DNA from: Burkholderiales bacterium
GTDB taxonomy: Bacteria > Pseudomonadota > Gammaproteobacteria > Burkholderiales > Burkholderiaceae_C
DNA length: 35,515 nucleotides
Reading direction: 5' to 3'
Assembly: GCA_017302655.1 (NCBI GenBank)
Contig: JAFLDE010000039.1
Span: 1 to 35,515 of the forward strand
Shown one piece after another: positions 7,637 through 29,299 of the stretch; positions within the stretch are counted from its first letter, which is position 1, and each line of letters begins with the position of its first letter. A model generated the notes under the pieces. It saw nothing but the letters and a program-made list of their open reading frames with translations. It was not told where the DNA came from and ran no database searches. The position numbers and the translations under genes were made by a program.

Positions 7637-10600
7637 ATGCTGTTCAATCGCGCTTACGCCAACACGGCGACCTCATCCTTGACCCGCCAGCTGAGTGGTA
7701 TCGCTCATCGGCGCATGGTCTCCCCTGGGATAGGCGCAATGCTCGCATCCGCGCTGGCGTTTGCCCCGAGCGCAGCATCCGCAGAGACCGCAGCCCAGTT
7801 GGACCTGGTGGTGGTGACCGCCAAGAAGCCGCAGCGAGACCCCGATCCTCAGCCAATCAGGATGGGCGGTTTCTCCACGTTGAGCGCCAGCCCGGCAGGC
7901 GCACCGGAGTTCATCGCAAAGGGTGAGCCAGATCCCGACAAGAACAACCCGCGAGGACCCTGCGACAAGGGCAGTTCGTCGCCGTCTACACGGCACCCCG
8001 TCATCATCGCCACCGGCGAGAAGTTCCTTGAGGAAACCGACTTCACCGACGCCTCCCGCGCCGGCCTGAGCCTGCAGCGCCTCTACCGAGCCAACACCCC
8101 TTCCACCGAAGCGATGTTCGGCCCGAACTGGCGCACCGGTTGGCTCTTCCCCAAGCTGGTCGCCAGCACGCAGTGCTCGGGGCCGCTCAAGACCCCGCTC
8201 AGCCTCGAGCTGACCGAGCGCGCCAAGCAATCGGTGCAGCCCACCGCAGCGCTGGCCGCCATCAGCCCGGCCTTCGTGGCACCCGCCGATGGCCGCAGCA
8301 CCACGTCCAGCACCTGCTACCCGGTACACATCACACTGACCCTCCCCAACGGCGCCAACTACCGTTTCGTCAACGAAGGCGGCCGGGTGTATGTGCCCAG
8401 CAATCTCGGCCCCGACTCCACCGTCGGTTGGCTCGACGTGCGCGGCTTCACCGCCAGCCACGAGTGGGTGGTCACCATCGCCGACACGGTCTATGCCTAC
8501 CACGCGATCACCAAGCAGTTGAAGTACATCGCTGCAGCCAAGGGCGCCGAGCTGCTGCAGGCCTTCGAATACGACACTGCCGGCAAGCTGACCAAGGTGA
8601 CGGGCGCCAGCGGCGCCAACATCCGCTTCAACTACACCGGCAACCGCGTCACCAGCGTCATCGACAGCGTGGGCCGCACCTGGGCCTACGGCTACAACGC
8701 GGCCGGTCACCTGAGCAGCGTCACGCCGCCCAGCGGCACGGCGGGTGCCAAGGTCTACCACTACGAGTCGCCCCACGGCGCCGACCTGCTCACCGGCTAC
8801 TCGACCGATGGCGTGCGCAACACGCGCTACGCCTATGACAGCAGCCGCCGGGCCACGCGCAGCGGCAGCGACAACGGCGAAGAGGTGGACAACTTCAGCT
8901 ACGCCGGCAGCACCACCACATTGACCGACCAGCGCGGCCAGCCCACCACCTACAACTTCTCCGGCAGCACCTACAAGCGCCTGGTGTCGGTGGACCGCGC
9001 GGCCACCAGCACCTGTGCAACGGCAATTCGGGAACAGAGCTACGACTCGCGGGGCTTCGTCACCAGCAGCACCGATTGGCGCAATACCACCACCGCCACC
9101 ACCTACGACAGCAGCGGCCAGCCAACCCAGCGCATCCTGGCCTCCGGCACTTCGAGCGCCTTGCGCACCGACTACACCTGGGTCGCCGGCAACCTCACCG
9201 CCGCTGACGAATTCACCAGCAATGGCCAGCTGTTCCGCCGCACCACACGCACCTACCACAGCAGCGGCCTGGCCAACGGCAAGCTGGCCAGCGAGACGGT
9301 GAGCGACGCCGGCGGCAGCGTGCAGCGCGTGCGCACCTTTGCCTACACCTTCCACGCCAACGGTGTGCTGGCCTCGGTGAGCGAAACCCTGAACCTGCCC
9401 ACCGGCAACGTCAGCCGCAGCCAGGCCTTCAACACCGCCGGCTGCCTGACCGGCCAGACCAACGAGGCCGGCCACACCGTCAGTTACGCCGGCCACAACG
9501 CCCAATGCCATCCAGCCAGCGTCACCGACGCCAACGGCGTCGTCACCCAACTGGCCTGGGATGCCGCCGGCCGCCTCACCGGCAGCACCCAGCTGCTGGC
9601 CGGCGGCAACCGCAGCCGCAGCCTGGCCTACAACGGCCTGGGCCTGCTCAGCAGCGTGACCGAGGTGGGCGTGAGCACGCAGTTCGCCCGCAACAGCGCC
9701 GGGCGCGTCACCGGCGTGGGCTATGCCGGCGCCAGCACCACCGAGGCGCTCGACGTGGCCAACCGCACCGAGACCTCTACGGCGCCGCGCCTGTTGCCCG
9801 CCGGTGCCACCACCGGCGCCCCATCCAGCACCGCCGCCAGCGCCTTCAGCCGCACGGTGGTGCGCGACAGCCTGGGCCGCCCCTACACCGCCTTCGGCGG
9901 CAACGGCCAGCGCAGCGACATGCGCTACGACTTCAACGGCAATCTGCTCACCCAGGACGATGTGAACGGCCGCCGCGTGAGCTTCAGCTACGACGCCCTG
10001 GACCGCCCGCGCACCCGCACCGAACCCGGCCTGGGCACCATCACCACCACCTACGACCTCAGCGGCCGGCTCGACACCGTCACCGACGGCCGCGGCCTGG
10101 TCACCGACTACAACTTCGACGCCCTGGGCAACCTCGTGCGCCTGGCCAGCCCCGACACCGGCGTGCGCACCCAAGTACCCGACCGCTGGGGTCGCATCAC
10201 CGCCCTCACGCGCAACGACGGCAGCAGCATCAGCCAGAGCTGGGACGCGCTGGATCGGTTGACCAGCCGCGCCAGCGGCGGCGTCACCGAAACCTTCGGC
10301 TACGACGCCGGCGCCTTCGGCAAGGGCCGCCTCACCAGCCTCTCGGATGCCAGCGGCAGCAGCAGCTACAGCTACAACGGCGCTGGCCAGCTCACCCAGC
10401 AGGTCAACACCATCCAGGGCCAGAGCTTCACCACCGGCTGGGGCTACAACGCCGCTGGCTTCCTGAGCAGCCTCAGCTACCCGGTGGGCGCCCTCTCCTT
10501 GAGCTACGGTTACGACAGCTTTGGCCGCATCAGCAGCGTCGTCGCCACCCTCAATGGCAGCACCATCACCCTGGCCGACAGCTTCGTCTACCAGCCCGGC

Positions 10601-11128
10601 TCAAGCATTCCGCTGGCCTGGCGCCTGGGCAGCAATTTGCAGCGCCGCCTCGTGCAAGACGCCTCCGGCCGCCTCATCCAAATCAGCAGCCCCGGTGCGC
10701 AAGACCTCACGGTGGCCTGGAACCCCAACGACACCGTGGCCAGCTTGGGCAACACGACCACCCCGAGCCAATCCGCCACCATAGGCTACGACGCCGCCCT
10801 GCGCGTCAGCAGCTACAGCGGCAACGGCACGGCCGCCAACCCGAACCTTGCCTACGGCTATGACGCCGTGGGCAACCGCGTGAGCGGCGTTGAGAATGGC
10901 GCCACCGTGACGCCCACCGTCTCCCTCGGCAGCAGCCGCATCACCGCCCTGAGCGGGCCGCAGTGGCGCAACTTGCCCCACAACGTCCTGGGGGCGCGCG
11001 AGGGGGCGCGTGGCGCGGCGCGAGGGTCTTTCGCGCAGCGGGAAGTCAAGAATCTTCAGCCGACTTCCGACGGTCAGGCGCGCTCTTACCCCAAGACGCC
11101 ACCCCTGGCGTTCCGCTCTTCAGTCTGA
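7637..11128 (+). CDS. Secreted RHS/YD-repeat protein with an abruptly replaced C-terminus
   Basis: 1163 aa. ATG 7637 follows TAGGGA at good spacing. An Ala-rich signal peptide ends near PSAASAETAA (about residue 50). Residues ~115-180 look like a DUF6531/RHS N-terminal block (HPVIIATGEKFLEETDF, then FGPNWRTGW). From ~residue 240 to ~1100 there are many YD repeats (for example YDAAGRL-, YDALDRPRTRTEP, YDLSGRLDTVTDGRG, FDALGNLVRL types), the beta-cocoon shell that encloses toxins or forms surface proteins. After SRITALSGPQ the pattern stops and the last ~54 residues are Arg/Gly/Ala-rich with no YD repeat, no RHS core protease motif and no toxin domain. The stop is at 11128. The gene may be a degraded RHS, a tip-swapped allele or an assembly collapse. 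No immunity-like gene follows; the next gene is convergent. Confidence 0.8.
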   Translation: MLFNRAYANTATSSLTRQLSGIAHRRMVSPGIGAMLASALAFAPSAASAETAAQLDLVVVTAKKPQRDPDPQPIRMGGFSTLSASPAGAPEFIAKGEPDPDKNNPRGPCDKGSSSPSTRHPVIIATGEKFLEETDFTDASRAGLSLQRLYRANTPSTEAMFGPNWRTGWLFPKLVASTQCSGPLKTPLSLELTERAKQSVQPTAALAAISPAFVAPADGRSTTSSTCYPVHITLTLPNGANYRFVNEGGRVYVPSNLGPDSTVGWLDVRGFTASHEWVVTIADTVYAYHAITKQLKYIAAAKGAELLQAFEYDTAGKLTKVTGASGANIRFNYTGNRVTSVIDSVGRTWAYGYNAAGHLSSVTPPSGTAGAKVYHYESPHGADLLTGYSTDGVRNTRYAYDSSRRATRSGSDNGEEVDNFSYAGSTTTLTDQRGQPTTYNFSGSTYKRLVSVDRAATSTCATAIREQSYDSRGFVTSSTDWRNTTTATTYDSSGQPTQRILASGTSSALRTDYTWVAGNLTAADEFTSNGQLFRRTTRTYHSSGLANGKLASETVSDAGGSVQRVRTFAYTFHANGVLASVSETLNLPTGNVSRSQAFNTAGCLTGQTNEAGHTVSYAGHNAQCHPASVTDANGVVTQLAWDAAGRLTGSTQLLAGGNRSRSLAYNGLGLLSSVTEVGVSTQFARNSAGRVTGVGYAGASTTEALDVANRTETSTAPRLLPAGATTGAPSSTAASAFSRTVVRDSLGRPYTAFGGNGQRSDMRYDFNGNLLTQDDVNGRRVSFSYDALDRPRTRTEPGLGTITTTYDLSGRLDTVTDGRGLVTDYNFDALGNLVRLASPDTGVRTQVPDRWGRITALTRNDGSSISQSWDALDRLTSRASGGVTETFGYDAGAFGKGRLTSLSDASGSSSYSYNGAGQLTQQVNTIQGQSFTTGWGYNAAGFLSSLSYPVGALSLSYGYDSFGRISSVVATLNGSTITLADSFVYQPGSSIPLAWRLGSNLQRRLVQDASGRLIQISSPGAQDLTVAWNPNDTVASLGNTTTPSQSATIGYDAALRVSSYSGNGTAANPNLAYGYDAVGNRVSGVENGATVTPTVSLGSSRITALSGPQWRNLPHNVLGAREGARGAARGSFAQREVKNLQPTSDGQARSYPKTPPLAFRSSV

Positions 11129-20569: not shown

Positions 20570-20622
20570 GGGCCCATTCTGCGCAACCGAGAATGCGCAC
20601 CGTCCTCCGCGAGTTCCCACCC

Positions 20623-21813
20623 ATGTTCGAACACATCCCTCCCTACGCCGGCGACCCCATCCTCAGCCTCAATGAGGCCTTCCAGAAGGATCCGCGCCCT
20701 CACAAGGTCAATCTTTCGATCGGCCTGTACTTCGACGAACAGGGGCGCATTCCCATGCCCGCCTCGGTGGCCGAGGCGGAGCGCCGCGTGGTGGCCCGTG
20801 CCGGCAGCCGGCCTTACCTGCCGATGGAAGGCGCGGCCAACTTCCGCGCGGCCGTGCAGGAGCTGCTGTTCGGCGGCAGTGCCGCCTTGCAGGAGAAGCG
20901 CATCGCCACCATCCAGGGCGTCGGCAGCTCGGGCGGCTTGCGCGTGGGCGCTGACTTTCTGAGGGCCCATTTCCCGGCCAGCCCGATCTACCTGAGTACG
21001 CCGACCTGGGACAACCACCGCGCAGTCTTCGAAGGCGCGGGCCTGGAGGTGCGCGCCTACCCCTACTACGACGCCAGCACCGGTGGTCTCGACTTCGCCG
21101 GCCTGCTCGCCGCGCTGGAGGCCGCCCCGGCGCGCTCGGTGGTGCTGCTGCACGCCTGCTGCCACAACCCCACCGGCGTGGACTTGAGCGCCGCGCAGTG
21201 GCATGAACTGGCCGTGCTGCTCAAGCGGCGCGAGCTGCTCGCCTTCCTGGACCTGGCCTACCAGGGCTATGGCGACGGCCTGCAGGAGGACTTGCTGGGC
21301 GTGAAGGCGCTGCTGGATGCCGGCTTGCTCTTCTTCCTGGCCAACAGCTTCAGCAAGAACATGAGCGTGTATGGCGAGCGCTGCGGCGCGCTGTCGGTGG
21401 TCTGCGAGAGTGCCGAGGCGGCCGAGCGAGTGCTCGGTCAGCTGAAGTTCACCATCCGCCGCAACTACAGCAACCCACCTACGCATGGCGGGCAGCTGGT
21501 CGCCACGGTGCTGCTGGAAGCCGACCTGCGCGCGCAGTGGGAGCAGGAGGTGACGCAGATGCGCCAGCGCATCCAGTCCATGCGCCGCCGCCTGCACGAG
21601 GTGCTGAGTCAAAAGCTGCCGGGTCGCGACTTCGGGTACTTCCTGAGCCAGCGCGGCATGTTCAGCTACACCGGTCTGAGCGCCGAGCAGGCCGAGCGCC
21701 TGAAGACCGAGCATGCCGTGTACATCCTGCGCAGCGGGCGCATGTGCGTGGCGGGCCTGAACGAAGGCAATGTGCAGGCCGTGGCGGAAGCCATGGCGAC
21801 AGTACTCGGGTAA
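20623..21813 (+). CDS. tyrB: Aromatic-amino-acid/aspartate aminotransferase (class I)
   Basis: 396 aa, matching TyrB/AspC length. MFEHIPPYAGDPILSLNEAF at the start and NLSIGLYFDEQGRIP are typical. HACCHNPTGVDLS contains the substrate/PLP Asn, FLDLAYQGYGDGL the Asp and Tyr that hold PLP, NSFSKNMSVYGERCG the PLP Lys, and the C-terminal RMCVAGLNE region has the carboxylate-binding Arg. It transfers amino groups between aromatic or acidic amino acids and 2-oxoglutarate. It is a single gene; a divergent GNAT lies upstream and the bufferin operon follows after 89 bases. Confidence 0.93.
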   Translation: MFEHIPPYAGDPILSLNEAFQKDPRPHKVNLSIGLYFDEQGRIPMPASVAEAERRVVARAGSRPYLPMEGAANFRAAVQELLFGGSAALQEKRIATIQGVGSSGGLRVGADFLRAHFPASPIYLSTPTWDNHRAVFEGAGLEVRAYPYYDASTGGLDFAGLLAALEAAPARSVVLLHACCHNPTGVDLSAAQWHELAVLLKRRELLAFLDLAYQGYGDGLQEDLLGVKALLDAGLLFFLANSFSKNMSVYGERCGALSVVCESAEAAERVLGQLKFTIRRNYSNPPTHGGQLVATVLLEADLRAQWEQEVTQMRQRIQSMRRRLHEVLSQKLPGRDFGYFLSQRGMFSYTGLSAEQAERLKTEHAVYILRSGRMCVAGLNEGNVQAVAEAMATVLG

Positions 21814-21838
21814 GTACTGAGAAGCCGCTCGGCCGGCC

Positions 21839-21902
21839 GGCGCGTATGGCAGGTACCGCGCCATGTCGGCGTGGGCTAGTTCATCCTTCCTAGGAGCCTC
21901 CT
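21839..21902 (+). promoter_or_regulatory. Leader of the bufferin operon with palindromes around the ribosome binding site
   Basis: The 89-base gap before bufA holds an inverted repeat GGCGCG...CGCGCC (21839-21862) without a T-run, and immediately before the ATG the palindromes TCCTAGGA (21888-21895) and AGGAGCCTCCT (21892-21902). AGGAG is the ribosome binding site, six bases from ATG 21903. Whether these act as an operator, a translation control or chance cannot be told by eye. Confidence 0.4.
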
Positions 21903-22163
21903 ATGCAAGTCAAGTCCGCCGTCGCCCTGGCCACCACCGCCGCCGCCCTGTTCGCCACCGCCCTGCCCACCGCCGCCCTGGCGGACAACCATGGGGCCAA
22001 GGTGAAGTGCTCCGGCGTGCACAGCTGCAAGGGCAACAGCGATTGCAAGGCTGCCACCCACGCCTGCAAGGGCCAGAACGCCTGCAAGGGCCAGGGCTGG
22101 GTCTACAAGAAGTCCGCTGAAGAGTGCAAGAAGGACGGCGGCAAAGTGGTGGACGGCAAGTAA
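21903..22163 (+). CDS. Bufferin-type Cys-rich RiPP precursor (exported)
   Basis: 86 aa. Residues 1-26 are a Sec signal peptide (basic MQVK start, Ala/Leu/Thr core, TAALADN cleavage). The mature ~60 aa contain six Cys spaced as C-x5-C-x5-C-x6-C-x5-C-x13-C, with repeated CKG-x-N/Q motifs (SCKGNSDCK, ACKGQNACKGQG). This is the pattern of BufA2-like bufferin precursors, whose core Cys are converted to thiooxazole-containing heterocycles by an MNIO enzyme and which sequester copper in the periplasm. A strong AGGAG precedes ATG 21903. The MNIO gene begins 4 bases after the stop, confirming the assignment. Copper as ligand is family knowledge; the metal for this peptide is not shown by sequence. Confidence 0.85.
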   Translation: MQVKSAVALATTAAALFATALPTAALADNHGAKVKCSGVHSCKGNSDCKAATHACKGQNACKGQGWVYKKSAEECKKDGGKVVDGK

Positions 22164-22166
22164 GCC

Positions 22167-23018
22167 GTGATCCAAGGCTTCGGCCTGGGCGCCCGCACCG
22201 AGCACTATGAAGGGCTCAAGCGGGCGCACGACGAGCGCTGGGGGAGCGCCCCCCAGTGGCTCGAATGCATTTCCGAGAACTACTTCGTGAAGGGGGGCGC
22301 CCCGCTGCGCCACCTGGACGAGCTGCGCCAGCGCTACCCGATGGTGCTGCACGGCGTGAGCTTGAACCTGGGTTCCACCGACCCGCTGCGCGCGGACTAC
22401 CTGGACGATCTGGCGCGGCTCGTGGATCGCGTGCAACCCGCCTGGGTCAGCGACCACCTGTGCTGGACGGGCACCGCCCATGGCCAGGTGCATGACCTGC
22501 TGCCGCTGCCGTACGCGCGCGCCACGCTGGAGCATCTGCGCAGCCGCATCCAGCAGGTGCAGGACCGCCTGCGGCGGCCGCTGGTGCTGGAGAACGTGAG
22601 CAGCTATGTGCAGTTCGCCGCCGACGAAATGGGCGAGGCCGAGTTTCTGGCCACCCTCGTGCGCGAAAGCGGCTGCCAGCTGCTGCTCGACGTGAACAAC
22701 GTCTACGTGAGCCACCGCAACCACGGCTTCGACGCGCAGGCTTTTATCGACGCCATGCCGGCGCAGGCGGTGGTGCAAATCCACCTCGCCGGTCACGAGG
22801 ACCTGGGCGAGCTCGTCATCGACACCCACGACGCGCCGATCCGCGACGAGGTCTACGCGCTCTACGCCTACACGCTGCGGCGCCTGGGCATGAAGCCGAC
22901 CATGATCGAACGCGACGCCGACATCCCCCCGTTGGCTGAGCTGCTGCTTGAACTGGATCGCGTGCGCGGCGTGGCCGCCGAGGCGGTGTCCAAGCCGCGC
23001 GTGGCAGAGGTGGCCTGA
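22167..23018 (+). CDS. MNIO (DUF692) multinuclear iron oxidative enzyme, bufferin maturase
   Basis: 283 aa from GTG 22167, three bases after the bufA stop. TIM-barrel MNIO motifs are present in order: ECISENYFVKGG, HGVSLNLGSTDPL, WVSDHLCWTG, LVLENVSSYVQF, LLLDVNNVYVSHRNHGFD, VVQIHLAGHEDLG, IDTHDAPIRDEV and MIERDADIPP. The His, Glu and Asp residues in these blocks ligate the di/tri-iron centre. Related MbnB makes methanobactin oxazolone/thioamide groups; BufB-type members make thiooxazoles on bufferin Cys. It should act on the precursor before export, using O2. Its TGA overlaps the ATG of the DUF2063 gene (TGATG). Confidence 0.92.
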   Translation: MIQGFGLGARTEHYEGLKRAHDERWGSAPQWLECISENYFVKGGAPLRHLDELRQRYPMVLHGVSLNLGSTDPLRADYLDDLARLVDRVQPAWVSDHLCWTGTAHGQVHDLLPLPYARATLEHLRSRIQQVQDRLRRPLVLENVSSYVQFAADEMGEAEFLATLVRESGCQLLLDVNNVYVSHRNHGFDAQAFIDAMPAQAVVQIHLAGHEDLGELVIDTHDAPIRDEVYALYAYTLRRLGMKPTMIERDADIPPLAELLLELDRVRGVAAEAVSKPRVAEVA

Positions 23019-23761
23019 TGCTCGCGGCCCTCCAAGCCCAGTTCCAGGCCGCCGTGCGGGGGCAGGTCGACGCGTCGCCGACCCTGCTGCGCGCCGGTGC
23101 CCAGTCGGCGCTCGGCTTGCAGGCCTATCGGCATGCCTACCGCGCCCGTCTGGTCGAGGCCCTGCAAGACAACTACAGCGCCTTGCACCAGGCGCTGGGC
23201 GACGAGGCCTTCGTCGATTTGGGTCACGCCTACCTGCTGGCGCACCCGCCGTCGGAACCCAGCATCCGCAGCTTCGGCCATGCCTTGCCCGCTTTCATGG
23301 ACGCCTGGCCTGAACTGCCGCACCCTGCGCTGGCCGACCTGGCCCGCCTGGACTGGGCGCTGCGTCACGCCTTCGATGCCGAGGCACGGCCTGCCCTGAG
23401 CGCCGGGCGCTTGCACGACGCCGAGCAATGGGCGCTGACTCCGCTGCGCCTGCAGTCGCACGTGAGCCTGCTGTCGCTGCGCTGGGCGGTGGCGGGCGCT
23501 TGGCATGCGCTGCAAGAGGCCCGCGAAGCCGGGCAGGAAGCCATGCTGGAGCCGCCCGAGGCGCTTGAGCACCACGTGCTGACTTGGCGACAGGGCGAGT
23601 CACCGCAGTGGCGCACGCTCGGTGACGACGAAGCCAGCGCCTTGGCGAATCTGCGAGGCCAGAGTGCCACGGATTGGCTGAGCGCCCGAGGCGAGGCGGC
23701 GCTGTCGCGCGCCGTGGCGTGGCTGCAAGCCTGGGTGAAGGACGGCTTGCTCGTCGCTTGA
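23018..23761 (+). CDS. DUF2063 partner protein of the MNIO enzyme (BufC-like)
   Basis: 247 aa. The N-terminal ~90 residues match DUF2063: GLQAYRHAYRARLVEALQDN (the conserved Y-R-x-x-Y...L...ALxxxYP helix pair) and LGDEAFVDLGHAYLLAHPPS, then SIRSFGHALPAFM. In MNIO systems this protein recognises the precursor and presents it to the enzyme. The C-terminal half is a helical and beta domain (HHVLTWRQGESPQWRTLGDD). No DoxX-like (BufD) gene follows; the next gene is a depolymerase 28 bases away, so the operon core is three genes, possibly extended by readthrough. Confidence 0.85.
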   Translation: MLAALQAQFQAAVRGQVDASPTLLRAGAQSALGLQAYRHAYRARLVEALQDNYSALHQALGDEAFVDLGHAYLLAHPPSEPSIRSFGHALPAFMDAWPELPHPALADLARLDWALRHAFDAEARPALSAGRLHDAEQWALTPLRLQSHVSLLSLRWAVAGAWHALQEAREAGQEAMLEPPEALEHHVLTWRQGESPQWRTLGDDEASALANLRGQSATDWLSARGEAALSRAVAWLQAWVKDGLLVA

Positions 23762-23789
23762 TGCGCCGAAAGCCGGGCAAGATGCCGGC

Positions 23790-24782
23790 ATGCGCCTCCA
23801 ACTGACTTTCTCCCTTGTCGCTCTGCTGCTCGGTGTCACCACGGGCGCTCGCGCCCAGGCCACAGCGCCCGCCTTGCCGGCTCTCGGTGTCGAGTTGCGT
23901 GGCGCCACGGTGTCGGGTGTTTCGTCCGGCGCCTACATGGCCTTGCAGATGCAACTGGCGGTGCCTGAGCGGTTTACGCAGGGCGCCGCTGCCGTGGCGG
24001 GCGGGCCGCCCGGCTGCGCGGAGGGTTCCGTGTTCAAGGCCATCGGCCCCTGCCTGGGCCGAAGCAGCATCGACACGGCCTCGCTGGTGCGACAGGCGCG
24101 CGAGCGATCCAGCGCCCAGCAGGCGCCGCTCGAGCCCTTGGCCAGCACGCGCATCTACCTGTTCGCTGGCGCCAAGGACGGCGTCGTCCAGCCCGCCACC
24201 AGCCAAGCCGCCCAGGCCTTCTATGCCGAACTGCTGCCGCAGGCGGCGGTGAAACTGGAGACGGGCGTGCCCGCGGGTCATGGCTGGGTGGTGGAGCGGG
24301 CCGGCGAAGCCGCCGACTGCGAGCGCATGTTGGCCCCGCACCTGCGGCCCTGCGGCTTCGACCTGGCCGGTGCGCTGCTGCAGCACTTGCTCGGGCCCCT
24401 GAAGCCACGCGGCGGCGAGGGCGAGCTGCTGCGCTTTGACCAAGGTCCCCATGCCAGCGCGCAAGCGGCGTTGGGTGAACAAGGCCTGCTCTTCGTGCCG
24501 GCCGCCTGCCGTAGCGAGCGGGGTTGCCGCGTGCACGTGGTGCTGCACGGCTGTCAGATGAACCTCGACGCGATCGGCGATGCCTTCGCCCGGGGCAATG
24601 GTTTGAACGAGTGGGCGGCCAGCAACCGGCTGGTGCTGCTCTACCCGCAAACCGGCTCGAAGGCCGTCAATGGCTGCTGGGACTGGTGGGGCTACACCGG
24701 CCCGCAGCATGCGAGCCGCGATGCCCCGCAGATCGCGGCCATTGGGGCCATGCTCCAGCGCCTCGCCGAAGTGCCGCGTTAG
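23790..24782 (+). CDS. Exported poly(3-hydroxybutyrate) depolymerase-like esterase
   Basis: 330 aa. The signal peptide (residues ~1-24) ends at ARAQA. The lipase box G43-V-S-S-G47 (Ser46) is close to the N-terminus, an Asp follows in AGAKDGVVQP (~130) and a His in PAGHGWVV (~163). The oxyanion-hole segment VHVVLHGCQMN comes near the C-terminus with NGCWDWWGY. This order (lipase box before oxyanion hole) is the permuted type II catalytic domain of PHB depolymerases. It would cut PHB or oligomers outside the cytoplasm or in the periplasm. No substrate-binding or linker domain is visible. It begins 28 bases after the bufferin operon and may share its transcript. Confidence 0.78.
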   Translation: MRLQLTFSLVALLLGVTTGARAQATAPALPALGVELRGATVSGVSSGAYMALQMQLAVPERFTQGAAAVAGGPPGCAEGSVFKAIGPCLGRSSIDTASLVRQARERSSAQQAPLEPLASTRIYLFAGAKDGVVQPATSQAAQAFYAELLPQAAVKLETGVPAGHGWVVERAGEAADCERMLAPHLRPCGFDLAGALLQHLLGPLKPRGGEGELLRFDQGPHASAQAALGEQGLLFVPAACRSERGCRVHVVLHGCQMNLDAIGDAFARGNGLNEWAASNRLVLLYPQTGSKAVNGCWDWWGYTGPQHASRDAPQIAAIGAMLQRLAEVPR

Positions 24783-24786
24783 GAAT

Positions 24787-25161
24787 TCAAGCGCCGTTGC
24801 AGCCCGCGCACAGACCGTACAGGGTCAGCTCGTGGTCTTGCACGGTGAAGCCGGCCGGGGCCAGGCGGGCGAGATTGCCCGGGCAGGCGTGCACGTCGAA
24901 CACGCGCTGGCAGCCACGGCATTGGAAGTGGTGGTGGTGCTGGTGGCCGGCGCGTTCATAGCGCGGGTTCTCGCCGGGTAGCTGCACCACCTGCAGCTCT
25001 GCCGCCTCCACCAGGTTCTTCAGGTTTCGGTAGACGGTGGCCAGGCCGAGGCCTGGCACGTCCTGCTGCGCCAACTCCAGCACTTCCTGCGCCAGCAGGG
25101 GGCGGGCGGCGTGATCGACGGCGGCACGGATGGCGGCGCGTTGGCGGGTCGAGCGTTCCAT
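24787..25161 (-). CDS. zur: Fur-family regulator, probably the zinc uptake repressor Zur
   Basis: 124 aa from ATG 25161 (ATG 25167 also possible; a longer reading upstream has no ribosome binding site). The N-terminus is a winged helix (RQRAAIRAAVDHA, then LGLATVYRNLKNLVEAAELQ, the DNA-recognition helix of Fur proteins). The dimer domain has the His-rich HQHHHHFQCRGC metal site and the closing LCAGC, giving the two C-x-x-C structural zinc pairs. The adjoining divergent operon (COG0523 GTPase, metal-binding ABC components, His-rich outer membrane protein) points to Zur rather than Fur or PerR. Stop is 5 bases from the convergent depolymerase stop. Confidence 0.85.
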   Translation of the reverse strand: MERSTRQRAAIRAAVDHAARPLLAQEVLELAQQDVPGLGLATVYRNLKNLVEAAELQVVQLPGENPRYERAGHQHHHHFQCRGCQRVFDVHACPGNLARLAPAGFTVQDHELTLYGLCAGCNGA

Positions 25162-25198
25162 GGGCATGGATTGTCGGATCAGGCATGAGGGCCTGTTA

Positions 25199-25230
25199 GC
25201 ACCACGGTAAGCGCTGGCTTCCCGTGGTGC
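25199..25230. repeat. Perfect 9-bp inverted repeat in the zur leader
   Basis: GCACCACGG, 14-base loop, CCGTGGTGC: a perfect stem 38-69 bases upstream of zur and about 75 bases upstream of the GTPase gene. It has no T-run. It could be a regulatory stem in the zur 5' UTR or an operator-like element; I found no second copy in the window. Confidence 0.5.
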
Positions 25231-25253
25231 CAACAAGCCATAGTGAGAAGGCA

Positions 25254-25293
25254 TTCGCATGTTCATTTAGAATTGATGCGAAAGCAATCTCAT
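25254..25293. promoter_or_regulatory. Candidate Zur operator region between zur and the zinc-uptake operon
   Basis: This is the AT-rich part of the divergent intergenic region. TTCGCAT (25254-25260) and ATGCGAA (25276-25282) form an inverted pair with a 15-base gap. The second arm is part of an 18-base imperfect palindrome, ATGCGAAAGCAATCTCAT (25276-25293), 12 of 18 positions symmetric. It lies 10 bases before the GTPase ATG, where a Zur dimer would block transcription or initiation. The assignment rests on position, symmetry and the flanking Fur-family gene; no consensus comparison was possible. Confidence 0.5.
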
Positions 25294-25303
25294 TAGAACG
25301 CCC

Positions 25304-26515
25304 ATGCGACCCTTGCCCGTGACGGTGCTGTCCGGCTTCCTCGGCGCCGGCAAGACCACCTTGCTCAACCACGTGCTGGCCAACCGCCAGGGCTTGCGCG
25401 TGGCCGTCATCGTGAATGACATGAGCGAGGTGAACATCGACGCCTCGCTGGTGGCGCAAGGCGCCGAGAAAGCCGGCGCAGCCTTGCACCGCACCGAGGA
25501 AAGGCTGGTCGAGATGAGCAACGGCTGCATTTGCTGCACCTTGCGCGAGGACCTGCTGCTGCAGGTGCGCCAGCTGGCCGAGGAAGGCCGCTTCGACCAC
25601 CTGCTCATCGAGAGCACCGGCATCGGCGAGCTGCTGCCGGTGGCCGCCACCTTTGACTTCACGGACGAGAACGGCCAGTGCCTGAACGACGTGGCGCGCA
25701 TCGACACCATGGTCACCGTGGTGGACGGCCACAACCTGCTGCGCGACTTCAGCAGCCGCGACCTGCTGGCCCATCGCGGCCAGGTGGCCGCCGAGGAAGA
25801 CAAGCGCAGCCTGGCCAGCCTGCTCACCGAGCAGATCGAGTTCGCGAATGTCATCGTGCTGAACAAGCTCGACCTCGTCAGCCCCGAACAGCGCGAGGAG
25901 CTGCATGGCCTGCTGATGGCGCTGAACCCGGGCGCGGAGATCGTCGAGGCGGTGCGCGGCAACGTGCCGCTGGATCGCCTGCTCGGCACCGAACTGTTCG
26001 ACCTCGAAGAGGCCAGCGAGCAGCCCGGGTGGGCGCGCGCGCTGGAGGGCGAGCACTTGCCCGAGACCGAGGCCTATGGCATCGGCAGCTTCGTGCTCAG
26101 CAGTCGCGAGCCCCTGCATCCCGAGCGCTTCGCCGCCTTCATGGAGATGCCCTTCGCCGGCCTGCTGCGCGCCAAGGGCTACGTCTGGCTGGCCAGCCGG
26201 CCCGACTGGGTGTTGGCCTACAGCCGCGCCGGCCATGTGGCCACCCACGAGGCCATGGGCCGCTGGTGGGCGGCGGCACCGCGCGAACGCTGGCCCGCGC
26301 CCGGCACGCCCGAGCGAGCCGGCATCGAAAAGAACTGGCGCGAGCCGCATGGGGACCGCCTGAACGAAGTGGTGTTCATCGGCCGAGAGCTGGATCGCCC
26401 GGCCATCGAAGCCGCCTGGAAGGCCGCGCACCTGAACTTCACCGAGACCCGCAAGGGCCGCGCCCACTGGGCGTCGCTGCCCGACCCCTTCCCGCAATGG
26501 CAGGCCACGGCCTGA
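25304..26515 (+). CDS. COG0523 G3E-family GTPase, putative zinc chaperone
   Basis: 403 aa. GTPase motifs are clear: Walker [13 protein letters not shown] (residues ~9-20), MSEVNID switch-like segment, the metal-binding [16 protein letters not shown] (C-x-C-C), [14 protein letters not shown] and NKLDL. The C-terminal half contains the CobW_C domain ([10 protein letters not shown], then W-x-x-x-P-rich loop). Zur-regulated COG0523 proteins such as ZigA/ZNG1-like enzymes deliver zinc to essential clients when zinc is scarce. It is the first gene of the operon facing zur, 36 bases before the outer-membrane gene. The function in zinc is inferred from context and family. Confidence 0.88.
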
Positions 26516-26551
26516 GCGCCGCCCGATCTGCCCTCAACCCAAGGAACAAAC

Positions 26552-27700
26552 ATGAAGAAGACCCCGTGGATCGCCACACTGCTGCTGCTGGCCAGTGCCA
26601 CCAGCCTGGCGCAGGGCAAGAAGGACAGCTGGCAGTTCGGCGGCGTGTTGGACATCACCCACACCACCCGTGCGCTGGAGCTTGGCGCTCGCGACCAGGG
26701 CCTGCAGCTCGGTCACAGCGACCTGTCAGCCACCGGCCCGGTGGGCCCCTGGCTGCGTGCCTACCTGGGTGCCGTGGTGGAGACCCACGATGGCAAGCTG
26801 GAGAAGGGTATCGAGGAAGCCTTCCTCGAAACCACCGCCTTGCCCTACGGCCTGCGTGCGCGGGCCGGTCGCTTTGCCTCTCAAGTGGGCTACCTGAACC
26901 AGCAGCACCAGCACGCCGATGACTTCAGTGAGCGGCCGCTGCTGTACCGGGCCTTCTTCGGCGGGCACTGGAACGATGACGGCGTGCGCCTGAACATGAC
27001 CCTGCCCACGCCCTTCTACTGGATGGTGGGTGGCGAAGCCTTCCGTGGCAAGAAGCTGGTGCCCGAGACCTGGGACCGTGTGAAGAACCCGGGCATCGCC
27101 ACCTTGGTCACCAAGTTCGGCGGTGACCTGGGCCGCTCGCAAAGCTGGCAGCTCGGGCTCTCTTACATCAAGAGCCGGCGCGTGGCCGCCTTGGAAGAAG
27201 AGCACGAGCATCACGACGACGGCGACGAAGGTCATGAAGAAGGCCACGAACACGAGCATGGCCATGGTGCCGCCTTCAGCGGTCGCAACACGCGCATGCT
27301 CGACTTCACCTGGAAGTGGGCACCCAGCGGCAACAACCGCGAGCAGCAGGTGCGCGTGAGTTTCGAGACCGCCCGCATCACCAAGATCAATCCCTTCGCC
27401 GGCAAGGGCGACACGCACCGCGCCAACGCGCTCTCGGTGGTGTGGCGCTTCCACCCCTCATGGGAAGTGGGCGCGCGCACCGATTCGCTGACCGTCGCCA
27501 TGCCGCACGACGATCACTTCCACAAGGGCCGTCTGCGCGAGGACGCGCTGATGCTGGCCTGGAAGCCCTCGCACATGCAGGCGCTGCGCCTGCAGTACAG
27601 CCGCCAGCGTGATGCCCAGGAGTTCGAGCACCCCAGCAAGCGCACGCTGCAACTGCAGTGGGTGCTCGCCTTCGGGGGGCATGGTGCGCACAGCTTCTAA
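26552..27700 (+). CDS. Outer-membrane beta-barrel porin with metal-binding loop, zinc-locus associated
   Basis: 382 aa. Signal peptide MKKTPW...SLAQG (residues ~1-21). The mature protein is a porin-like barrel, closing with a strand ending in a C-terminal Phe (VLAFGGHGAHSF). Residues ~215-238 are a long acidic, His-rich stretch (HEHHDDGDEGHEEGHEHEHG), probably an extracellular or periplasmic loop that binds zinc; smaller His clusters occur at NQQHQHADD and PHDDHFHKG. It is too short for a TonB-dependent receptor and lacks plug motifs. Position in the operon suggests it brings zinc across the outer membrane. A good AAGGAAC precedes ATG 26552. Its stop lies 20 bases inside the next gene. Confidence 0.72.
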   Translation: MKKTPWIATLLLLASATSLAQGKKDSWQFGGVLDITHTTRALELGARDQGLQLGHSDLSATGPVGPWLRAYLGAVVETHDGKLEKGIEEAFLETTALPYGLRARAGRFASQVGYLNQQHQHADDFSERPLLYRAFFGGHWNDDGVRLNMTLPTPFYWMVGGEAFRGKKLVPETWDRVKNPGIATLVTKFGGDLGRSQSWQLGLSYIKSRRVAALEEEHEHHDDGDEGHEEGHEHEHGHGAAFSGRNTRMLDFTWKWAPSGNNREQQVRVSFETARITKINPFAGKGDTHRANALSVVWRFHPSWEVGARTDSLTVAMPHDDHFHKGRLREDALMLAWKPSHMQALRLQYSRQRDAQEFEHPSKRTLQLQWVLAFGGHGAHSF

Positions 27701-28565
27701 GTGCCTGGCCGCGGCACTGCTCTGCGTGAGCAGTGCCACGCAGGCCTTCACCGTCTTCGCCTGCGAGCCCGAGTGGGCAGCGCTGACCCGGGTCCTGCTG
27801 CCCAGCGCCAAGGTGTTCGTGGCCACGCACGCCGGTCAGGACCCGCACCACATCGAGGCCCGCCCGAGCCTGATCGCCCAGCTGCGTTCGAGCGACCTGG
27901 CGGTGTGCACCGGCGCCAGCCTGGAGTCCGGCTGGCTGCCCATGCTCCAAGAGCGCGCCGGACGCAAGGTGCCGCTCTTTGAAGCGGCCGACCACGTGGA
28001 GCTGATCGATCCTCAACCTGGTGCCATCGGCAGCCCCTGGGCGGGCGACGTGCATGCCGAGGGCAACCCGCATCTGCACGCCGACCCGCGCAAGCTGCTC
28101 GAAGTGGCGCTGGCGCTGAGCACCGAACTGCAGCAGCGTGTGCCGGCTGAAAAGGCGGCCATCGCCCAGCGCGGGCAGGTCTTTGAATCCGCGTGGCGCG
28201 CAGGCATCGCGCGGTGGCAGGGCCAGGCCGCGCCGCTCAAGGGCAAGCGCGTTGCGGCGCAGCACAGCAGCTTCGGATACCTGTGGCGCTGGCTGGGCAT
28301 CACGCAACTCGCCGACCTGGAGCCCAAGCCCGGCATGGCGCCCACGCCCGGGCACTTGCAGCGCTTGCTGGATGGGCTGAAGAGCCAGCCGCCGTCGGGC
28401 ATCGTGTTGACGAGCTACCAGGATCCGCGCGCCGGGCGTTGGCTGCAGGAGCGGCTGAATCTGCCGCTGTTGGTGCTGCCCTCCACCGTGCCAGAGGAGG
28501 CCGGTCAGGACGGCCTGATTCTCTGGATGGACGGACTGCTCGCGGCGCTTGGCGGGCTGAAGTGA
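27681..28565 (+). CDS. ZnuA-like zinc/manganese ABC transporter substrate-binding protein
   Basis: 294 aa from ATG 27681, overlapping the porin end by 20 bases. Signal peptide residues ~1-22 end at ATQA. The cluster A-I metal ligands are visible in order: His in GQDPHHIEARPS, His in GNPHLHADPRKL, His in AAQHSSFGYLWRWLGI, and Asp in TSYQDPRAGRWLQE. Unlike many ZnuA proteins, it has no His-rich central loop; that feature sits instead in the neighbouring porin. It should bind Zn2+ in the periplasm and deliver it to the permease, whose ATG shares one base with its stop. Confidence 0.85.
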   Translation: MVRTASKCLAAALLCVSSATQAFTVFACEPEWAALTRVLLPSAKVFVATHAGQDPHHIEARPSLIAQLRSSDLAVCTGASLESGWLPMLQERAGRKVPLFEAADHVELIDPQPGAIGSPWAGDVHAEGNPHLHADPRKLLEVALALSTELQQRVPAEKAAIAQRGQVFESAWRAGIARWQGQAAPLKGKRVAAQHSSFGYLWRWLGITQLADLEPKPGMAPTPGHLQRLLDGLKSQPPSGIVLTSYQDPRAGRWLQERLNLPLLVLPSTVPEEAGQDGLILWMDGLLAALGGLK

Positions 28566-29299
28566 TGGCGGAGTTGTGGTTTCTGGCGCCTGCCGCAGCA
28601 CTGCTGGCGGGCTTGCTGGCCCTTGCGCCGCTGGGGGTGCAGGTGCTTCGCCGTGGCGTGGTCTTCATCGACCTGGCTGTGGCTCAAGCCGCCGCCGCGG
28701 CGGCCCTGGGCGTGGCTGCCTGGGTGGAACACCCCGGTTGGTGGATCGCTCAAGGCGCCGCCCTCTGCGGCGCGCTGCTGGCGGCAGCGCTGGTGGCCTG
28801 GCTGGCGCGGCGCGCGCCAGCTCAGCGAGAGGCGCTGATCGGCCTCGTCTACGTGGCTGCAGCCTGCGCGGCCTTGCTCACGGCGCGTAGCGACCCGCAT
28901 GGCCGGGAGCGCATGGCCGAACTGCTGGCTGCCGATGTGCTGTGGGCCGGTTGGCCGCAGGCCGGCGTGCTGGCCGCCTGTGCGCTGGGCGTGGGCTTGC
29001 TGCAGCGTTGGCTGGCGCAGGATCGTTGGTTCTTCCCCTCCTTCGCGCTGGTCACCAGCCTGGCGATGCCCGTCCTGGGGCTCTTCGTCGTTTTTGCCCT
29101 GCTCATCGCGCCTGCGTTGTGGTGGCGGCGCAAGCCAAGCACTGCGATGTTGGGTGCGAGCCTGGCGCTGGTCCTCGGCCTGGGCATCAGCGGCGTGCTG
29201 GATGCCCCCAGCGGCGCTTGCGTGGCGCTGATGCTGGCCCTGTTCGGAGCGCTCAGCGCCTTCAGGCGATCGGCCGCACCGCCTGATCTTCAGCCGTAG
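28565..29299 (+). CDS. ZnuB-like metal ABC transporter permease
   Basis: 244 aa, about eight transmembrane helices. It has the features of the ABC-3 permease family: PLGVQVLRRGVVFIDLAVAQ (cytoplasmic coupling segment preceding the Ala-rich helix), LLAADVLWAGWPQ, and VTSLAMPVLGLFVVFALLIAPA near the C-terminus. It should form the inner-membrane zinc channel with ZnuA and a ZnuC ATPase. No ATP-binding gene is encoded in the operon or elsewhere in this window. The gene starts at ATG 28565 (TGATG with the preceding stop) and overlaps the convergent amgK end by 10 bases. Confidence 0.85.
   Translation: MAELWFLAPAAALLAGLLALAPLGVQVLRRGVVFIDLAVAQAAAAAALGVAAWVEHPGWWIAQGAALCGALLAAALVAWLARRAPAQREALIGLVYVAAACAALLTARSDPHGRERMAELLAADVLWAGWPQAGVLAACALGVGLLQRWLAQDRWFFPSFALVTSLAMPVLGLFVVFALLIAPALWWRRKPSTAMLGASLALVLGLGISGVLDAPSGACVALMLALFGALSAFRRSAAPPDLQP

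Follow-up and report, generated by a model that had tools for sequence, protein, structure and literature searches.

A Buf2 bufferin operon in a Burkholderiales genome and the promoter motifs and sigma factor genes associated with its relatives

The bufferin operon and its genomic setting

The window, a stretch of 35,515 nucleotides of a Burkholderiales bacterium (contig JAFLDE010000039.1), carries at 21903-23761, on the + strand, three genes arranged head to tail that encode a precursor peptide, an MNIO enzyme and a DUF2063 protein. The first gene, bufA2 (21903..22163, +), is preceded by AGGAG and encodes a Buf2 bufferin precursor of 86 aa, which matches NF050166 with 91.3 bits (cut-off 60). 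The second, bufB2 (22167..23018, +), starts with GTG and encodes an MNIO (DUF692) bufferin maturase of 283 aa, with matches to NF050167 (BufB; 352.7 bits, cut-off 310) and to PF05114 (347 bits, cut-off 25), while the third, bufC2 (23018..23761, +), encodes a DUF2063 partner of 247 aa that matches PF09836 (70.4 bits, cut-off 27.2). The family matches of all three products are far beyond chance, and the three reading frames are intact. A gap of 3 bases separates bufA2 from bufB2, and bufB2 and bufC2 overlap by 1 base (TGATG), the layout described in an earlier note on this DNA; the span given there, 21839..23761, does contain the three genes, but position 21839 falls in the upstream spacer.

The gene order bufA-bufB-bufC is that of Buf2 bufferin operons. 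In related loci, some of them cut by contig ends, the precursor is followed by an MNIO in 71 of 80 and by an MNIO and a DUF2063 protein in 65 of 80. An AlphaFold2 model of BufC2 (pLDDT 93.0, pTM 0.89) retrieved TglI (8hci_A, E 1.6e-6) and NGO1945 (3dee, E 1.8e-5) from the PDB with Foldseek, so that BufC2 is predicted to fold like these two proteins, with a DUF2063 and an RRE-like domain; a phmmer search of BufC against the PDB gave a single match at chance level. According to PMC12452194, NGO1945 is typical of the DUF2063-RRE proteins that partner MNIO enzymes. Since the NCBIfam models for BufA2 and BufB are passed, the predicted partner fold is NGO1945/TglI-like and the A-B-C order recurs in relatives, the operon is a standard Buf2 (6-Cys) bufferin operon, one more in a large known family. 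The bufferin-type RiPP operon proposed in the earlier note is thus confirmed by NF050166, NF050167, PF05114, PF09836 and the partner fold, and can be assigned specifically to the Buf2 family.

The locus agrees with Buf2 (BUF_6/12Cys) as portrayed in PMC12452194 in its six-Cys precursor, whose signal looks Sec-type by eye, and in its MNIO, DUF2063 partner, A-B-C order and lack of DoxX. Buf1 operons (DUF2282; gigPABT of Cupriavidus metallidurans) use the same enzyme and partner families, but their precursors have four conserved Cys and match DUF2282, and DoxX is often present. When the precursor was compared with the BufA1 and BufA2 groups, as the earlier note had advised, it passed the BufA2 model and had no match to PF10048 (DUF2282) at E <= 1, and it has six Cys against the four of Buf1. 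The Lys-Cys captophorins (oxazolin, fontiphorin, gonophorin), as presented in PMC13097082, share the MNIO and a DUF2063 (PME1) partner, and thiooxazole chemistry would be expected in both; however, their precursors have EGKCG repeats, whereas that of the window has Cys-Lys motifs, and repeats of the EGKCG/oxazolin (HvfA) type are absent from its sequence.

The genome of the window (G000) is a 203-contig draft of 4.43 Mb with a completeness given as 99.96%. A second MNIO, on contig C171, lies with a DUF2282 precursor, a DUF2063 partner and DoxX, forming a Buf1 operon, so that the genome carries one bufferin operon of each type. The genome search for a DoxX-like gene recommended in the earlier note therefore finds one, in the Buf1 operon. 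That note was right that the window operon has no DoxX-like gene, but this is no peculiarity, as DoxX of the Buf1 operon, used as query, matched in four of the 80 related loci, three of which also match a Buf1 precursor; more divergent DoxX proteins could escape this search, as could genes beyond the contig ends at which some loci stop. The note rested on the window alone, and the Buf1 operon and the lack of the promoter and of the sigma factor were outside its view.

Upstream of bufA2, at a distance of 89 bases, an aromatic amino acid aminotransferase gene ends (20593..21813, +; NF006719, 550.9 bits). In the congeners G003 and G004 this gene also lies upstream, but some 2.1-2.2 kb away and with other genes intervening, and it is absent from the 18-kb stretch of a third congener, G002. 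Downstream, a cluster of zinc-type genes at 24787-29299 includes a Fur-family regulator (24787-25266, -), a ZigA-like GTPase (25304-26515; 561.7 bits, below the cut-off of 600) and a ZnuA family protein (27609-28565) with an ABC-3 permease nearby; no ABC ATPase was recognised among the listed frames of at least 220 aa within 24787-29299. A further gene of this cluster encodes a protein of 382 aa that has a His-rich stretch and for which neither Pfam nor NCBIfam gave a match. Elsewhere in the window, a frame of 1163 aa (7637-11128) shows YD/RHS-like repeats by eye.

Precursor and maturase among their relatives

As judged by eye, BufA2 has a Sec-like signal peptide of about residues 1-27, with K4, a hydrophobic stretch at about 7-22 and an ALA/DN junction, and the mature part, D28-K86, holds all six Cys. 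These lie at positions 36, 42, 48, 55, 61 and 75. Three are part of a CKG motif, a repeat to which the earlier note had pointed. Searches with BufA2 provided 146 loci, of which the best 80 were kept; 130 precursors were collected and, after identical sequences were merged and a 16-aa fragment (L129_17697) was left out, 129 were aligned. In this set, which was gathered by similarity to the BufA2 family and whose selection favours conservation, Cys36 and Cys48 are each kept in 128 of 129 precursors and the other four Cys in all 129. Both exceptions belong to one broken copy (L078_8324), a tandem precursor in which Tyr and Arg replace two of the six Cys and which is perhaps a decaying duplicate. 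PMC12452194 gives six conserved Cys for 90% of Buf2. The possible distinct modification pattern that had been read from the CKG repeats and one distant Cys is not supported, given that the six Cys positions are filled in 128 or 129 of the 129 precursors.

Lys follows the four central Cys in 128, 100, 120 and 129 of the 129 precursors, respectively, and the residue after the first and the last Cys is mostly not Lys; the window precursor has Lys after Cys75, as do just 7 of 129. Because of this distribution of Lys, Cys36 and Cys75 resemble, at the level of sequence, the outer Cys pair, which forms a disulfide in Buf1 (PMC12452194, Fig. 3 legend). An AlphaFold model of BufA2 is weak (pLDDT 62.2, pTM 0.39) and uninformative on a Cys36-Cys75 pair. 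Among the relatives, one Buf2 precursor of 174 aa (L026:482) bears a long His/Lys/Gly-rich tail beyond the six-Cys domain. Three or four tandem Buf2 precursor genes precede one MNIO in L043, L045, L047, L054, L074 and others, and several of these arrays come from Reyranella and Rhodospirillales records.

The polar positions H62, H97, E142, D175, H206, D219, H221, E248 and D250 of the MNIO are identical in 107 of 108 ungapped rows, and BufB2 of the window keeps all nine; we take them to serve as ligands or base. A base role among the conserved positions is described in PMC13097082, and the Cys-Lys MNIO logo published there has Asp at position 251, for which a contact with the substrate Lys was proposed from a model. 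BufB2 has Ala at this position, and the 14 nearest MNIOs collected all have Asp; across 68 BufA2-linked MNIOs, Asp occurs in 39, Ala in 25, Gly and Glu in one each and a gap in two. Asp251 is a trait of the published logo, absent from the window enzyme, and no strict definition of Buf2. A changed substrate motif was considered as the reason for the two states and rejected, as the CK motifs are alike in both groups: Lys follows the second and the fifth Cys in every precursor that fits the spacing, in the Ala251 group (49 of 50 fit) as in the Asp251 group (41 of 41). From these unchanged motifs, Asp251 seems dispensable for a CK substrate. The MNIO of the window is 75-79% identical to those of G003 and G004, and that of G002 is more distant (about 51%).

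Promoter motifs and sigma factor genes

In relatives, an ECF-type promoter, TGTAAG-N16/17-CGAC, often precedes bufA1 and bufA2. Of the 129 regions upstream of bufA2, 39 contain the motif GTAA[GCT]-N15-18-CG[AT][AC], predominantly with a spacer of 16 or 17; first-order Markov control sequences gave 2.3 on average (sd 1.6). The other 90 regions have no match, and the 129 comprise second and later members of tandem arrays as well as many sequences from alphaproteobacteria. A weight matrix was built from 38 motif sites, the window being excluded, and any identical site was left out when scoring. Within the same order, 15 bufA2 upstream regions from 13 genomes reached matrix scores of 11.9-19.5, and none of these regions was equalled by any of its 60 shuffles; 14 of the 15 had supplied training sites. 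In G058 the scores of the four bufA2 copies do not exceed 5.0 and lie in the range of their shuffles, despite two sigma matches in that genome. The bufA1 genes that lie beside a sigma gene provide a more independent test of a matrix derived from bufA2: in 15 relatives their scores were 8.9-22.6 and all exceeded the respective 95% null, those of G033 and G035 staying below the highest of 60 shuffles. Genome-wide, the strict motif occurs twice in G012, once before bufA1 and once before bufA2, four times in G018 (two before buf genes), four times in G034 (one buf, three elsewhere), once in G032, away from the upstream regions of buf precursors, and in neither G003 nor G004; a reversed control gave 0-6 hits per genome in six genomes. 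The literature searched contained no paper tying bufferin MNIO operons to a sigma factor promoter; other papers may describe such a rule.

Upstream of the window operon, the sequence GGGTAAGTA (21808..21816, +) contains GTAAGT at -95, with no CGAC -10 at the right spacing, and the congeners G003 and G004 have a complete element, TAGTAAGTT...CGAC, at the same distance of -95 (for G004, the more upstream of its two ATGs serves as reference). The DNA alignment of the three congeneric upstream regions is poor, the G003 stretch being partly coding, and spacing was compared directly instead. GGGTAAGTA is possibly a -35 remnant of an ECF-type promoter; since it overlaps the stop codon of the aminotransferase gene, it may also be there by chance. 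The region before bufA2 has a matrix score of -0.8, or 5.4 when other spacings are allowed (null mean 3.8, sd 3.5, 95% value 9.9), and contains no TGTAAG-N16-CGAC site with up to two mismatches. The bufA1 of the same genome scores 4.6, below its 95% null of 5.4. Across the genome, TGTAAG-N15-18-CGAC has 5 matches against 14 for the reversed control, none of them on the two buf contigs. A sigma-70 promoter scan of 21700-23900 found no promoter, and the sole terminator-like site in this interval lies on the - strand, inside bufC2. The upstream aminotransferase gene is a possible source of read-through transcription into bufA2.

In 15 of the 19 loci inspected, bufA1 has an ECF sigma gene as its divergent neighbour, 194-865 bases from the first Cys codon of bufA1. 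In G001 it is followed by a gene for a short protein with an H-x3-C-x2-C motif, which we take to mark a zinc-finger anti-sigma factor. A plasmid-borne relative of this sigma factor (46% identity) adjoins a protein annotated as zf-HC2, with no bufferin gene annotated within 5 kb. At E <= 1e-20 the bufA1-side sigma factor had one match each in 19 of 20 chosen genomes and none in G000, whose best match, at 4.3e-7, is no close homologue. Among 60 genomes, 30 have both an MNIO and the sigma factor, 6 the MNIO alone, 3 the sigma factor alone and 21 neither (Fisher p 4.7e-8, relatedness ignored); the sigma factor is accordingly missing from 6 of 36 MNIO genomes, G000 among them, and present in 3 of 24 without MNIO. 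In G008 and G040, which have an MNIO and no such sigma factor, an NrsF gene lies within about 1.2 kb of an MNIO. In G000 the position divergent to bufA1 is taken by a different large reading frame, and the sequence there is contiguous, so that an assembly gap does not explain the absence of the sigma gene from its usual place; such a gene could still sit in a gap elsewhere in the 203-contig draft, despite its high completeness.

The operon CC2907-CC2906-CC2905 of Caulobacter vibrioides presumably corresponds to Buf2 of later papers. In the 2012 account, CC2907 is labelled DUF2282, and the operons CC2907-CC2905 and CC3254-CC3257 depend on sigma-F, with the consensus GTAACC-N16-CGAA (PMC3511200). 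Sigma-F drives CC2907-CC2905 from such a site, whereas the 300 bases before bufA2 of the window hold none with up to two mismatches. Before bufA1 of G000, a two-mismatch site is present (L005 7396-7421, -), about 0.05 such sites being expected per 250 bases on one strand. The genome also encodes a SigF-NrsF pair on contig C141, unlinked to the buf operons, with a perfect GTAACC-N16-CGAA at its start; as this site overlaps the assumed ATG, the true start should lie further in. According to PMC12452194, Buf2 clusters do not contain sigma genes. An exception occurs in another genome (G031, L123 8022-10985), where a SigF-NrsF pair and a Buf2 operon are divergently arranged and sigma-F sites point in both directions.

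In the gig region of C. metallidurans (L187, NC_007974.2 1310000-1320000), taken from a record without annotation, a homologue of the SigF of G000 occupies the place of RpoQ (49.7% identity over 161 aa) and is followed by an NrsF homologue (32.7%). The gigP-rpoQ divergon contains two perfect GTAACC-N16-CGAA sites, at L187 5144-5169 (-) and 5204-5229 (+), which are directed at the Buf1-type precursor gene, gigP, and at the sigma gene. If one mismatch is allowed, the expectation for the 10 kb is 0.24 sites, and 5 of 200 shuffles had as many as two. PMC10304878 and PMC11022561 state that no gig promoter was identified and that control of gig by RpoQ was not demonstrated. It has been reported that deletion of rpoQ raised gig expression, which was ascribed to compensation among sigma factors, and that rpoQ-rsqA is RpoD-dependent (PMC10304878).

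Proposed maturation, expression and regulation

According to PMC13097082, 5-thiooxazole is the modification made by the characterised MNIO-PME1 clusters, and Cu binding is general among them. For the window operon, we propose that BufB2 and BufC2 would oxidise Cys of BufA2 to 5-thiooxazoles in the cytoplasm, with a change of about -4 Da each; the modified set would most likely be the four central Cys (42, 48, 55 and 61), Cys36 and Cys75 being kept for a disulfide like that of Buf1. Export of the modified peptide by Sec and chelation of copper in the periplasm are predicted to follow. Switching on by the ECF sigma factor that goes with bufferin operons in most of the relatives examined is unlikely, since no close homologue of this sigma factor was found in the genome and no -10 for it upstream of bufA2; more likely, the operon is transcribed jointly with the aminotransferase gene before it or from a promoter that escaped recognition. 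Against this account count Ala251 in place of the Asp of the logo, the draft state of the genome and genomes such as G058 that break the motif rule. Taken as a whole, this account of a Buf2 operon with thiooxazole maturation, Sec export, copper chelation and no ECF switch is considered highly probable.

Three other readings have been weighed against it. That a different set of Cys is modified in a Buf2 variant is suggested by the rare Lys after the last Cys (7 of 129) and by an Ala251 that stands among Asp-bearing close relatives, yet Ala251 is common, with 25 of the 68 BufA2-linked MNIOs, and the CK motifs are the same in the Ala and Asp groups, and we regard such a variant as unlikely. A zinc-linked metallophore, with the operon as a part of zinc homeostasis, draws on the neighbourhood, for the operon ends 1 kb before the Fur-family gene and the ZigA-like GTPase and ZnuA/permease-like genes lie further on. 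A PHA-depolymerase-like gene, however, separates the operon from the zinc-type genes, and these had tblastn matches (E 1e-4) in none of the 80 related loci (flanks up to 8 kb, less at contig ends), nor in further loci compared, including those of the congeners (L115-L117); as the adjacent zinc genes are not conserved, a zinc role is rejected as very improbable. About as improbable is a decaying, unexpressed relic left by the loss of promoter and sigma factor, neither of which was found, for against it stand the three intact frames, the AGGAG before bufA2, the conserved MNIO positions and an enzyme that retains 75-79% identity to those of G003 and G004.

Beyond the preferred account of the window operon, a wider and more tentative reading, to which we give somewhat less than even chances, would unite the bufferin operons of Burkholderiales in a single ECF regulon served by either of two interchangeable types of switch. 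The first would be an ECF sigma factor, probably held by a zinc-finger anti-sigma factor, that reads TGTAAG-N16/17-CGAC; the second would be SigF/RpoQ with NrsF, reading GTAACC-N16-CGAA. The window lineage, as a natural mutant, would then have lost the first sigma factor and its promoters, and its Buf2 operon would have shifted from a response to metal stress to constitutive expression coupled to the aminotransferase gene. Several results weigh against the regulon: the 90 bufA2 regions and the G058 copies without the motif, the G033 and G035 scores below the highest shuffle, the low selectivity of the strict motif outside G012, the 6 MNIO genomes that lack the sigma factor and the 3 genomes that have it without MNIO, the plasmid relative with no annotated bufferin gene within 5 kb and, in C. 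metallidurans, the raised gig expression after rpoQ deletion and the reported RpoD dependence of rpoQ-rsqA.

In itself, the operon is one more Buf2 of a known kind, and its interest may lie in the switch that it seems to lack and in the concrete promoter rule, covering both bufferin types, that comparison with its relatives suggests. The perfect sigma-F sites in the gig/rpoQ divergon may bear on RpoQ control of gig. The bacterium of the window would be a natural strain seemingly without the usual switch.
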